Source: Cryptosporangium aurantiacum
Lineage (GTDB): Bacteria > Actinomycetota > Actinomycetes > Mycobacteriales > Cryptosporangiaceae
Assembly: GCF_900143005.1 (NCBI RefSeq)
Contig: NZ_FRCS01000027.1
Location: forward strand, 1-64,000
Direction of reading: 5' to 3'
Length of the DNA stretch: 64,000 nucleotides
The notes below the pieces were generated by a model. It saw only the letters and a list, made by a program, of their open reading frames with translations. It was not told the DNA's origin and made no database searches. The position numbers were made by a program, and so were the translations under genes. This document shows positions 51,746 to 56,664 of the stretch, piece after piece (the stretch's first letter is position 1; each line of letters opens with the position of its first letter).

Positions 51746-52007
51746 TCTACGCGATGCGGTCAGTCGGCCGCGCGGGCCGCCCGTGAGCAGGGTCAGCGGC
51801 TGTCCTTCCCCGGGCCGATCCGGCGACGCTGTTGACGCTGTACGGCTGATATCACCGCCGGGCCGCACTCCGCATTGTGGATGCTTCGACGCAGGCGCCT
51901 CCGCCGGGCCGGGCGAATGCCCGCCGGATGGTGTCTAGCGGGCTCGCGTGCTGCCCGGCAGCATCAGATCCCGCTGCGCGTCGCAGTGCATGGTGGGGGG
52001 GACCACG

Positions 52008-53318
52008 ATGGTTGACCAACGAACGGCGTCCAAAACCGGCCGGTCGCGGAAACGGGCCGACCTGTCCCGTTCGGACGCCACGACACATCTCGCGACCGGT
52101 GCCTACGTCGACCGGGATTTCCGCCGGGCCGCGATCAACCAGGTCTATTTTCAGCCGGCGCGAGCTGTCGCGCCCTCCCATGGCTTTGACGCCACGCTCG
52201 TGCTGTTCCATTGCTGGCAGGCGTGGCGGTGGGAATTCGCCCGTGACGCGGTGGTTCTGCTCTCGCTGTTCACGACGTTCCTGCTCTCGGGGACCGTCGG
52301 GGCCGCGGTACTCGGCATCGCGCTGGTGATCTACGTGATCGGGGACTTCGGCACGCTCGTCCGGCGCGCCCTACTCCTGATCAAATACGGGCGAGAAAGC
52401 GACGTGACGGTCGGCGAGCTGTTCGCCCGGGCTCTGCGGTTGTCGGCGCTCTGGGTGGTCGTGGTCGTCGTGGGCGCTGCCTTGGGACTGTCGAACCTCG
52501 AATCTCTGATCACCTACCTGTTCGACCTCGCGGTCGGCGGTTCGTCAGGTCCGGGCGGGGCCGACGGTGTCGAACCGCGAACCTGGCTCGCGGTCCTCGT
52601 CGCCCTGCTTATTCCCATTGCGACCGTCGGATACCGGAGCGCGGCGCAGCGCGCGATCGACGGGCTGGCCACCCACGATCAGGACTGGCGCGCCCACCTC
52701 ACCGAGCGCATGCGCACGATCGGACGCCAGCAGTATCCGGCGGTCGTTCGGTATGCGGGGTTCGAGCCGTTCGTGGGCGCGGGCTGGGTCCTGCGGGACT
52801 GGTCTTTCGCTCTCCGCCTGATGCCGGCCGTGCAACCGGGCGAGCGTCCGTGGACGGGCGAGGAGGTGGAACAGCACCCGGCCCCGTTCGACGCCGTGGA
52901 CCTGATCGAGCATTTGCGCCGCCGGTTCGACGAACTCCGCGCCACCGAGCGACACCCCACCCAGAGGCTCGACACGGCCGTCGCCGGCGAACAGATGTTT
53001 CTGCCGGCCGCTACCGCTCTCCGTTCGCCGGTGAGGTGCCCACACGCGCCGAACGGGACGAGGTCATCCGCGACCCGGACGGACCCGCCCGCTACGAACT
53101 CGTCGCCCAGGCCAGCGGGTGGGGCGGCGAAATCGTCACGACGACGTACGTGCTGGTCACGCTTCAGGCCGGGATGCTCCACGTCGAGTTCACGTCGCTG
53201 CTGTTGCCGCCGACGCCGGCCCACTTCCACCAGGTTCACCAGATCGGTGGCGTGGGGCAACCCGCGCGAAGCAGAGCCGGCTGGCGCGGGATCCGGGAGA
53301 TGCCGGGCGTCATCCTGA
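52008..53318 (+). CDS. Membrane protein of the motif-pair operon, N-terminal part (frameshifted gene)
   Basis: The frame encodes about 330 believable residues before an apparent shift near 53000-53013; beyond that it reads out-of-frame Arg/Ser-rich sequence to 53318. The protein begins with a basic leader and a conserved-looking segment (RRAAINQVYFQPARAVAPSHG, LFHCWQAWRWEFARDAV), then hydrophobic helices (LLSLFTTFLLSGTVGAAVLGIALVIYVIG; LSALWVVVVVVGAALGL; TWLAVLVALLIPIATVGY). A soluble region follows with RERM-like helices and RYAGFEPFVGAGWVLRDWSFAL. No family was recognised. ATG 52008 follows a G-rich stretch. One missing base in CTGCCGGCCGC would explain the break; the remainder is annotated separately. 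Confidence 0.6.
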   Translation: MVDQRTASKTGRSRKRADLSRSDATTHLATGAYVDRDFRRAAINQVYFQPARAVAPSHGFDATLVLFHCWQAWRWEFARDAVVLLSLFTTFLLSGTVGAAVLGIALVIYVIGDFGTLVRRALLLIKYGRESDVTVGELFARALRLSALWVVVVVVGAALGLSNLESLITYLFDLAVGGSSGPGGADGVEPRTWLAVLVALLIPIATVGYRSAAQRAIDGLATHDQDWRAHLTERMRTIGRQQYPAVVRYAGFEPFVGAGWVLRDWSFALRLMPAVQPGERPWTGEEVEQHPAPFDAVDLIEHLRRRFDELRATERHPTQRLDTAVAGEQMFLPAATALRSPVRCPHAPNGTRSSATRTDPPATNSSPRPAGGAAKSSRRRTCWSRFRPGCSTSSSRRCCCRRRRPTSTRFTRSVAWGNPREAEPAGAGSGRCRASS

Positions 53319-53710
53319 CCTCGCCGGTGCGCGTGGTAACCGCGCTCGGCGAGCGGCTCCGGGGTCGGCTCGCCGAATCGGCGCTGGTTTTCGACAGCCA
53401 GCCGTGGGGAGATCGGGGGGCGGTCGTCAGCATCCGCGAGATCGGCGCGGTCAAGCCGGAGAACTATTTCCAACGCAGCGACGCCTTCCGCTTTCTGAAG
53501 CTGGTCGAACGCCGTCTGCTCGCGGACCTGAAGGAATACCTCGTCGACGCCGGAGTCGACGTGTCCGAACTCGGCGAACGAATCGTCAACGTGCTCAACA
53601 CGTCGATTTCCAACGCGAACTACGGCGTCCAGAACCTCGGATCCGGCAGCACGACGGTCAGCAACTCGGTGATGGGGCAGGGCAACGTGACCAGGGAGGG
53701 ATCGCGATGA
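53036..53710 (+). CDS. Membrane protein of the motif-pair operon, C-terminal part with Asn/Gly motif
   Basis: This frame continues the preceding gene: coding character begins at about 53005 (AGRYRSPFAGEVPTRAERDE) and ends at 53710. GTG 53036 would be the first independent start, but no ribosome-binding site is seen. The soluble domain contains YELVAQASGWGGEIVTTTYVLVTLQAGMLHVEFTSLLLP and a helical stretch (FRFLKLVERRLLADLKEYLVDAGVDVSELGERIVNVLN). The last 33 residues form a motif with NYGV, GSG, NSV, MG and a final Asn. The same motif opens the next protein. The stop overlaps the next start (ATGA). Confidence 0.6.
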   Translation: MPTRAERDEVIRDPDGPARYELVAQASGWGGEIVTTTYVLVTLQAGMLHVEFTSLLLPPTPAHFHQVHQIGGVGQPARSRAGWRGIREMPGVILTSPVRVVTALGERLRGRLAESALVFDSQPWGDRGAVVSIREIGAVKPENYFQRSDAFRFLKLVERRLLADLKEYLVDAGVDVSELGERIVNVLNTSISNANYGVQNLGSGSTTVSNSVMGQGNVTREGSR

Positions 53711-54066
53711 ACGACTCCGTCAACTACGGCGTGTCCAGCAGCGGCTCGGGCGACGTCTCGATCACCAATTCCGTTCTGGGGCGCGACAACACCGTCGTGC
53801 GGCCGGTGGACACTCGGATCGACGAGCTCGCCGTGGAAATTCGTGCGGCGCTGCAGCGCAACCGCGAGCGTCTCGACCAGACCGACGACCTGCTCGCCGA
53901 TCTCGAGACCGCGCTCGCGGAACTGCACCGCGCGGAGCCGGACGGCAGACGGGTTCGGACGCTGCTCCAGCGGATCGGTGCGGCGCTCGGGGCAGCCGGG
54001 GTGGTTGCTTCGCCGGTGGCCGACCTCGTCACGGTCGCCTCCACGATTACCGGCGGCACGGGATGA
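53707..54066 (+). CDS. Small helical protein with N-terminal Asn/Gly motif
   Basis: The 119-residue protein opens with about 30 residues (SVNYGV, SGSG, ITNSVLG, DNTVV) that match the C-terminal motif of the upstream protein in order and spacing. A coiled-coil-like helix follows (RIDELAVEIRAALQRNRER and LLADLETALAELHRAE), then an amphipathic C-terminus (LLQRIGAALGAAGVVASPVADLVTVASTITGG) that could pack against a membrane. The start overlaps the upstream stop, and the stop overlaps the next start (ATGA at 54063). Function unknown; a signalling partner of the upstream protein is inferred. Confidence 0.75.
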   Translation: MNDSVNYGVSSSGSGDVSITNSVLGRDNTVVRPVDTRIDELAVEIRAALQRNRERLDQTDDLLADLETALAELHRAEPDGRRVRTLLQRIGAALGAAGVVASPVADLVTVASTITGGTG

Positions 54067-55806: not shown

Positions 55807-56664
55807 GTGGAGGGTTCCGGGGACGAAAAGCGAATGACCAGCGTGGCGCGCAGTACGCGGAGAATCTGGGAAAGAGTGACGGTCGGCCTGACCTTGGTCA
55901 CCGGAACCTATCTTGTTCTCGCGACGATCGAGCCGACCCGTGCGGTCCTCGAGCGGTACGTATTCAAGCTCGATACGGCAGCTATCGCTGCTCTGGTCGC
56001 CGTGATGCTCGAAGTGTGCATCATCGCGATCTACCAACTCGGACGCGATGTTCGCGCCATGCGTCGCGCCCTGGAAAAGCAGGTCAGCGACAACGTGATC
56101 TACGACATCAGCGAGATCGTCGACCGGCTTCGCGACACACCGCATCCGCACCGGGCCGATCCGTGTGAAGTGGAGGTGCTCGGCCACACTCTCGCGGCCG
56201 TGTGGCCGCAGCTCTCCGCCTGGGTGACGTCGCGAGCCCAGCCCACGAACTGGAAGGTCGTTCTGTACTGTCTCTCGCCGGAGTTCATTTCCGAATGCGG
56301 ACAGTTTCCGGCGTATTGGGAGGACGAGTCGCGGCGAATGCAAGCACGCATCCAGGAATTCGTCGCGATGCACCGAGCCGACATGGCCCGGCGCGGCCTG
56401 ACCATCGAGGTGCGGCCGTACGCGTGTTTATCGATCGTGCACGGTTACCGATTCCAGAACGGCGAGATCTTCATGTCCTTCATGGAGTGGAGCCGGGACG
56501 ACAAAGTGACGCCGTACCTGTTCTACGAGCGGCTCTCGCCGGATGACCGATCGGCGCGCGACAACGAATACCGGGAGCTCTTCAACAGCTGGATGCGTCG
56601 GGTGCAGCGCACGGCGGTTCCCGATTCCGACCTCACGCGCGACCCCTCCGTAGCCGGCCCGTAG
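55807..56664 (+). CDS. Unrecognised two-helix membrane-anchored protein
   Basis: The 285-residue protein has two N-terminal membrane helices (VTVGLTLVTGTYLVLATI and IAALVAVMLEVCIIAIYQLG) and a cytoplasmic domain of about 200 residues with KVVLYCLSPEFISECGQFPAYW, IEVRPYACLSIVHGYRFQNGEIFMSFMEWSRDD and RDNEYRELFNSWMRRVQ. The domain layout suggests a sensor or effector anchored at the membrane. Codon choice is less GC-rich than its neighbours (GTATTC, CTTGTT, TATCTT), a possible sign of transfer. The GTG start follows a GGGGGGTG stretch; TAACAT at 55773-55778 is a possible -10 box. Confidence 0.65.
   Translation: MEGSGDEKRMTSVARSTRRIWERVTVGLTLVTGTYLVLATIEPTRAVLERYVFKLDTAAIAALVAVMLEVCIIAIYQLGRDVRAMRRALEKQVSDNVIYDISEIVDRLRDTPHPHRADPCEVEVLGHTLAAVWPQLSAWVTSRAQPTNWKVVLYCLSPEFISECGQFPAYWEDESRRMQARIQEFVAMHRADMARRGLTIEVRPYACLSIVHGYRFQNGEIFMSFMEWSRDDKVTPYLFYERLSPDDRSARDNEYRELFNSWMRRVQRTAVPDSDLTRDPSVAGP

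Follow-up and report, generated by a model that had tools for sequence, protein, structure and literature searches.

The window, by which we mean the whole stretch of 64,000 nucleotides of Cryptosporangium aurantiacum DNA analysed here, contains a unit of three overlapping, co-directional genes on the forward strand (P1, P2, and P3, as read from the sequence and the list of open reading frames [ORFs]), which sits among metabolic genes in that list. P1 encodes a membrane protein and lies in two reading frames. Its N-terminal part (51948–53015, with possible starts at GTG 51948 and ATG 52008) is a frame 0 ORF and equals the membrane half of the protein family described below, and its C-terminal part (approximately 53041–53710, with the stop codon at 53708–53710) belongs to the frame 2 ORF at 52850–53710 and comprises the putative cytosolic alpha/beta part and the tail. 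P2 (53707–54066), the presumed effector gene, encodes 119 residues, and P3 (54063–54836) encodes 257 residues with a proline-rich N-terminus, one hydrophobic segment, and a weakly SH3-like C-terminus. P1 and P2 overlap by an ATGA stop/start at 53707–53710, as the initial annotation had proposed, and P3 overlaps P2 by ATGA as well; the frames of P2 and P3 are open in the window genome. Downstream of the unit, positions 55807–56664 encode a predicted membrane protein with a cytosolic domain, which has no match in Pfam at E 0.01 and none in PADLOC.

Near 52990–53030, the coding signal of P1 passes from one frame to another, with both parts strongly coding, and the place of the change can be put at 52990–53040 from the move of the GC3-GC2 signal from frame 0 to frame 2 and from a match to the family profile in two consecutive pieces (52071–53015 to model positions 3–299 and 53048–53668 to model positions 323–551). 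Among 139 homologous ORFs, 134 span nearly the whole family model and 138 read through the model region of the switch in one open frame. The local copy of P1 therefore appears to have been recently broken or mis-assembled: the frame switch could be an error of the assembly, or a frameshift that inactivated the gene very recently. The membrane protein of the initial annotation is not a single open frame; the position of its motif at the C-terminus stands.

The two motif copies lie on either side of the junction of P1 and P2. The C-terminal tail of P1 reads NANYGVQNLGSGSTTVSNSVMGQGN (53612–53686) and the N-terminal head of P2 reads SVNYGVSSSGSGDVSITNSVLGRDN (53716–53790), and the two align over 25 residues without a gap and with 12 identities, so that the elements NYGV, GSG, and those that follow do occur in both proteins in the order and spacing that the initial annotation reported. 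The local alignment of tail and head has a score of 72, compared with a mean of 27 and a maximum of 61 in 5,000 shuffles of the tail. A profile built from the two copies recovers both sites in the 9.58-Mb window genome (E = 4e-17 and 2e-16) and no third one, the next-best match in that genome having an E-value of 0.61.

In an AlphaFold2 model of P2, the motif copy is of low confidence and probably disordered (residues 7–28 are mostly at pLDDT < 50), and from residue 31 onward the block means are 79–97; four helices are predicted at residues 33–115 (53803–54051), the last of which is hydrophobic. The protein is distantly DUF5955-like (E = 0.021, below the family cut-off). Its helical part has no significant structural or sequence relative (best Foldseek E-value of 0.23), and a ‘Bell/HeLo-like’ label is thus not established; the VIA Z of up to 10.6 is in the range that the tool calls common for helical bundles. 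A PADLOC match of P2 to JetC (E = 8.7e-4) was taken as a chance helical match.

Through its weak DUF5955 match, P2 pointed to divergent genes of this family in other actinobacteria. Twelve regions around such genes contain a P1 homologue in eight cases (L029–L036) and lack one in four (L037–L040), and in five of the eight (L029, L030, L031, L033, and L034) a next gene with its own matching motif is readable directly. Two weak matches from the protein search with P2 (L006 and L007) were taken as spurious, the genes of L007 being unrelated. A profile of the membrane protein found 138 relatives in named genomes, and the best 80 of these 138 loci, which were taken further, come from Nonomuraea, Planomonospora, Actinomadura, Actinoplanes, Lentzea, Amycolatopsis, Streptomyces, Intrasporangium, and others.

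Within the class, 68 of 394 genomes match the receptor family. In 15 of the 68 the match is only partial (within model positions 35–156) and falls at the site of a motif-less Streptomyces-type paralogue, leaving 53 of the 394 genomes with a match beyond this paralogue; the three paralogue loci that were read (L152, L153, and L185) have neither tail motif nor partner. A wider receptor profile matches 13 of 296 phylum genomes, partial paralogue matches being among these, and one locus outside the class (L245) has a tail and a head that match by eye. Of four genomes in the genus of the window, only that of the window has the unit. Carriage on plasmids was dropped as a proposal, with just two weak records. 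DUF5955 genes also occur without the motif: such a gene is above the cut-off in 27 of 296 genomes, mostly of one genus, and 19 of 20 re-read loci lack an N-terminal motif by eye, with the remaining one having no match. The motif therefore acts like an addition to the helical domain. In the class sample, one genus often has a motif-less DUF5955 gene (L009–L028).

To compare tails with heads, partners were defined as the gene after the membrane gene and called by codon-position GC only, blind to the motif. Among 141 loci, a membrane ORF was found in 139 (all except L089 and L177), and a partner was called in 130; no call was made for L068, L069, L098, L133, L144, L145, L147, L162, and L180, four of which (L133, L144, L147, and L162) have a matching partner by eye. 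Eight loci with a gap of more than 100 nt were left out of the permutation test (L077, L081, L094, L148, L152, L153, L184, and L185), and the window was added. Miscalled partners were kept in the test, among them those of L047, L051, L092, and L174. Some genomes occur twice among the loci, L148 and L174 being the same place, a duplication that is absorbed by clustering the membrane proteins at 50 per cent identity, which gave 46 clusters. This test supersedes an earlier one with GC3-chosen partners, in which 10 of 80 loci had been removed by hand (L047, L051, L068, L069, L077, L081, L089, L092, L094, and L098).

Tails match the heads of their own partners specifically. The tail/head match exceeds z = 3 in 113 of the 130 called pairs and z = 5 in 108. 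Across the 46 clusters, the own-pair score has a mean of 74.4, compared with 29.2 for mismatched pairs, and none of 10,000 permutations reaches 74.4. A tail's own head ranks first in 37 of the 46 clusters and among the top three in 43; with clustering at 40 per cent identity, it ranks first in 26 of 27. As a control, the 60 residues before the tail score 20.2 with the own partner and 20.9 with mismatched ones, and 8,928 of 10,000 permutations reach the own value. Tails compared with partner residues 61–120 show a small excess (23.7 versus 21.3; 17 of 10,000 permutations), which we tentatively attribute to second or tandem motif copies. The pairs differ greatly from one another, as illustrated by GGNYGPINTGSG with GGNQGPINTGSG in L070, GGTFTGSTIGGQGA with GGTFTGSNIGGQGA in L071, and GGQQNFGGKNT with GGIQNFGGQNT in L084. 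The gap between the two genes is 0 nt or less in 59 of 118 pairs and −4 in 42.

Over 45 pairs, the codon is shared at 425 of 688 identical residues, compared with approximately 372 expected, and this modest excess is carried partly by a few pairs, with L071, L156, and L170 clearly above expectation. (For the window row, codon usage was taken from the misframed piece, which alters only the expected value of that row, 4.6 or 5.3 of the approximately 372.) Because codon sharing is only slightly above chance, the match is in general not a recent DNA copy; it is old and maintained at the protein level. A reading in which the similarity is a functionless by-product of duplication or gene conversion is therefore barely credible to us: adjacent genes can recombine, and the three codon-rich pairs and the overall excess fit such a process, but most identical residues are at or near chance codon identity, matching pairs are found repeatedly in highly divergent lineages and with output domains that are unrelated, and partners located elsewhere in the genome also resemble the tails.

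The last 60 residues of the receptor were compared with the first 60 of the partner, and in the 113 pairs with z > 3 the segment that matches is a median of 28 residues long (range 15–48), ends a median of 7 residues from the receptor C-terminus, and begins at a median partner residue of 8. G, N, Q, and S are abundant in it (G at 19.2 per cent against a comparison value of 8.2 per cent, and N at 9.1 against 1.4 per cent), and charged residues are scarce (7.8 against 21.6 per cent). The motif is also nearly exclusive to the unit. With a Streptomyces/Lentzea motif profile, each of 10 genomes has exactly two sites, both in the unit, and no other site below E 0.16 (in part of them among the best 150 candidates per genome). 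Of the 24 sites expected in another 12 genomes, 23 fall below E 0.01, all at the unit, and no site outside the unit does so, the next having an E-value of 0.066 (among the best 150 candidates per genome). Over the 23 genomes searched, neither a third carrier of the motif under E 0.05 (in part among the best 150 candidates per genome) nor an NLR carrying it was found; as only these best candidates were scored in part of the genomes, the exclusivity is not absolute.

Several loci depart from the standard arrangement. In L092 and L077 there is no adjoining partner, and a partner with a motif similar by eye lies elsewhere in the genome. No partner was found in the genome of L047, which keeps its tail; in L081 a partner-like domain lacks a clear motif, and the partner of L051 looks broken. 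These five loci were the ones examined for the refuting case named in the initial annotation, homologues in which a single protein of the two bears the motif. Eight partners (L135, L142, L158, L163, L164, L171, L172, and L176) carry two tandem motif copies by eye; the copies are separated by a linker, and the receptor tail carries one copy. In L098 (6001–7905), receptor, a single motif, and helical domain are fused in one protein, and in its sister species (L105) there are two genes and two motifs, so that the fusion looks like a deletion between two motif copies.

The motif does not follow published patterns. PP, PUASM, and GDQN patterns occur in none of the 113 pairs. The RHIM core has the pattern [VI]Q[VILFM]G, and in this strict form it is present in one head and no tail of the 113 pairs; a much looser RHIM-like pattern, found in 55 tails and 51 heads, is too loose to count either way. 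Of the earlier proposal of an amyloid-like signalling pair, the pair and its shared motif hold; of the named patterns, PP is absent and the strict RHIM core nearly so.

The architecture of the membrane protein is seen in a model of a relative of P1 (L042; pTM of 0.83). Four long helices in its N-terminal half (65–96, 98–113, 124–153, and 174–206) fit transmembrane (TM) segments and are followed by a predicted cytosolic alpha/beta domain and a low-confidence tail (555–585) that holds the motif. By simple hydropathy, the receptors of the 40 listed loci have two to four segments each. Pfam gives no convincing match for the family among 33 members scanned (two singletons, best E-value of 1.6e-4), none of these 33 has an NLR domain or a PADLOC match, and no significant solved relative was found by sequence or Foldseek. 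An aromatase/START-like fold was rejected (E of 0.13 or worse; TM-scores of at most 0.27).

Behind the matched motif, the output domain is exchanged between partners. Pfam was searched with 112 of 118 partners (all except L109, L110, L111, L115, L116, and L117). DUF5955 (PF19380) is matched at E 0.01 by 39 of 50 aligned partners, with P2 of the window among the 50 and unmatched, and at E 0.001 by 5 of 54 more divergent ones. PNP_UDP_1 is found in 7 of 10 partners and in 3 of the 54, TIR_2 in one partner (L093; E = 1.4e-11), and EAD1 in two (L141 and L143), and 55 of the 112 match none of DUF5955, PNP_UDP, TIR, and EAD1. No caspase peptidase occurs among the 112, one weak CATRA-C match (E = 0.0041) being the nearest. 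In PADLOC, two PNP partners are both matched as ‘Effector, PN-superfamily’ (E = 7.9e-22 and 6.5e-16), and the TIR partner and one EAD1 partner have no match. The motif match is kept across these outputs: z is 7.7 to 21 in 10 pairs with PNP, in the TIR pair, and in one of the two EAD1 pairs, the other (L143) matching weakly (z = 2.4). With the pair specificity across 46 clusters and the swapped outputs, the proposal of a receptor and an effector linked by a low-charge Asn/Gly motif is strongly supported. One 3.3-kb locus (L272, 189–1830) joins, in one open frame, a stretch resembling PNP_UDP and a helical protein, DUF5955-like, whose N-terminus bears the motif ‘VVVQAGHVHGGIRV’; no membrane receptor was detected within this locus, which is possibly another motif-linked system.

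P3 was initially counted as an SH3-type partner of the system, a role that it loses here: it is an optional third gene, and its SH3 match is below the family cut-off (Pfam E = 0.0028). A co-directional ORF follows the partner within 120 nt in 42 of 117 loci, in 22 of them with a predicted TM segment. Kinship of these 22 with P3 is not established; 20 were compared further, and those of L050 and L056 were set aside as unlike by eye. In L136, L140, L142, L154, L158, L161, L163–L166, L171–L173, L175, and L176, the product of the gene after the partner begins with a stretch of the W...Q.W type and has a single TM helix and an outer domain, which in L173 is weakly PsbP-like (E = 2.9e-5); it may be an envelope sensor tied to one branch of the system.

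We propose that the unit is probably a two-gene actinobacterial signalling system in which a membrane receptor activates its cognate effector via the matched motif, in the manner of amyloid signalling. The receptor would consist of approximately four membrane helices and a cytosolic alpha/beta domain, with an apparently disordered tail holding the motif of approximately 28 residues; the soluble partner would present the cognate motif first and then its output domain, here a four-helix bundle and in relatives PNP_UDP, TIR, or EAD1. At rest, both motifs would be unfolded. Some membrane or envelope insult would trigger the receptor, which would then cluster, and the clustered tails would take up a shared beta-arch or cross-beta fold and, by binding the partner motif directly, template the same fold in it. 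Templating would gather the output domains at the membrane and switch them on, and the outcome, which we infer to be defence or cell death, might be membrane damage or the depletion of nucleotides or NAD. A conserved receptor, a variable and matched terminal motif, and exchangeable outputs together form a templating design, which argues that triggering would nucleate a shared beta fold. We also count in its favour the low pLDDT of both motif copies in otherwise confident models, the low-charge, Gly/Asn-rich composition, the tandem copies in eight partners, the fusion with a single motif (L098), and the similar motifs of the partners that L092 and L077 have elsewhere. Weighing against the proposal are the lack of a match to the known amyloid patterns scanned, the 55 of 112 partners that match none of the four output families, the solitary tail of L047, the weak pair L143, the missing PADLOC matches of the receptor and of the TIR and EAD1 partners scanned, and the split receptor gene of the window genome.

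The main rival to templating is ordinary, finite beta pairing, in which tail and head would form a stable complex (a two-chain beta-arch, a short solenoid, or beta-augmentation) that neither templates nor becomes amyloid. What was found is matching and near-exclusivity, and polymerisation is not among the data; moreover, a glycine-spaced pattern with alternating hydrophobic residues also suits a solenoid, and one of 50 partners has a weak match to the YdcK beta-solenoid (E = 0.0018). This match aside, there was no sign of the ordinary beta-solenoid that the initial annotation had named as a refuting outcome, and the motif is of low confidence in both models. Constitutive docking would presumably need no near-identical sequences, and the tandem copies in eight partners also count against finite pairing. 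Additionally, PNP_UDP, TIR, and helical outputs joined by the same logic are amyloid signalling elsewhere, in the excerpts drawn on here (PMC7889193, PMC9815663). We regard finite pairing as unlikely, albeit a serious contender.

A housekeeping role, in which a membrane regulator or transporter has a small accessory subunit, with PNP, TIR, and EAD1 as exceptional partners, appears improbable. It would fit the metabolic surroundings of the window unit, the motif-less DUF5955 genes (27 of 296 genomes; 19 of 20 re-read loci), and the small proteins of unknown function that make up most of the sampled partners. However, TIR, PNP_UDP, and EAD1 are recurrent domains of conflict systems in the part of the survey used here (PMC7159879), partners with these domains mostly keep the matched motif, and the unit is patchy, being present in one of four genomes in the window's genus. 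We consider it very improbable that tail and head make no mutual contact and instead recognise one site on a common third protein or membrane feature. Binding of this kind would also account for the pair-specific covariation, and the third genes with a predicted TM segment (22 of 117 loci) could supply such a protein, but 95 of the 117 loci have no called predicted-TM ORF within 120 nt downstream, the 23 genomes searched yielded no third carrier of the motif, and a fusion with a single motif copy exists (L098).

Under the templating reading, we lean towards regarding the unit as an NLR-independent, amyloid-type class in which the receptor carries a private C-terminal code, only its own effector carries the same code at the N-terminus, dozens of such codes are unlike one another, and outputs are interchangeable. 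No description of the unit was found in the literature searched, the founding BASS paper lying outside the reach of that search, and none was found of DUF5955. As far as excerpts of the relevant papers show, the unit resembles BASS/Bell-NLR systems in its adjacent or overlapping genes, in a short motif shared by receptor and effector, in several unlike motif families, in a main helical-bundle effector with TIR as a minor one, and in its occurrence in multicellular actinobacteria (PMC7889193, PMC8086366). In the same excerpts, however, the BASS receptor is an NLR, whereas that of this unit is a membrane protein with approximately four TM helices; the BASS motif is at the NLR N-terminus and the Bell C-terminus, whereas here the polarity is reversed, from receptor C-terminus to partner N-terminus; and this unit differs in having PNP_UDP and EAD1 outputs (PMC7889193, PMC8086366).

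The fungal HET-s, PP, sigma, and PUASM systems, to the extent that the excerpts used describe them, share with the unit the pairing of a receptor motif with an effector motif and, for PUASM, PNP_UDP outputs (PMC9815663, PMC7889193), and the tandem copies in eight partners resemble the HET-s repeats described in a section of the review (PMC7889193). Receptor type and motif polarity differ from those in the same excerpts, and none of the 113 pairs has the PP, PUASM, or GDQN pattern (PMC9815663, PMC7889193). RHIM (RIPK1/RIPK3) and BASS3 are similar in being short homotypic-assembly motifs of death-signalling proteins, although the strict RHIM core is in one head and no tail of this unit's 113 pairs.

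Among actinobacterial conflict systems, the EACC1 ‘System 4’ also joins a membrane component to a variable effector and has a link to EAD1, according to its section in the survey (Kaur 2020, PMC7159879). That section gives it one TM helix and mostly a caspase partner, in contrast to the four TM helices (L042 model) and absence of caspase here, and describes no terminal matched motif (PMC7159879). EADs, in the part of the survey that treats them, follow the same adapter logic, with the same module on core component and effector and with adjacent copies most alike, but they are small, mostly helical domains, whereas the motif here is of approximately 28 residues and has no predicted fold (PMC7159879).

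A 2021 review asks, in the section used here, whether fungi and bacteria have signalling amyloids in NLR-independent pathways (PMC7889193), and the unit is a concrete and testable candidate for one. Its many unlike but internally matched motifs provide dozens of natural pairs from which the specificity of templating could be learned, and DUF5955-type proteins gain a suggested role, as does a large membrane family without a convincing Pfam match. If the proposal is true, the unit would be a bacterial counterpart of templating from receptor to executioner, with sensing at the envelope: its motif handshake resembles a membrane-based form of the amyloid switch by which fungi and other bacteria turn on effectors of cell death and immunity.
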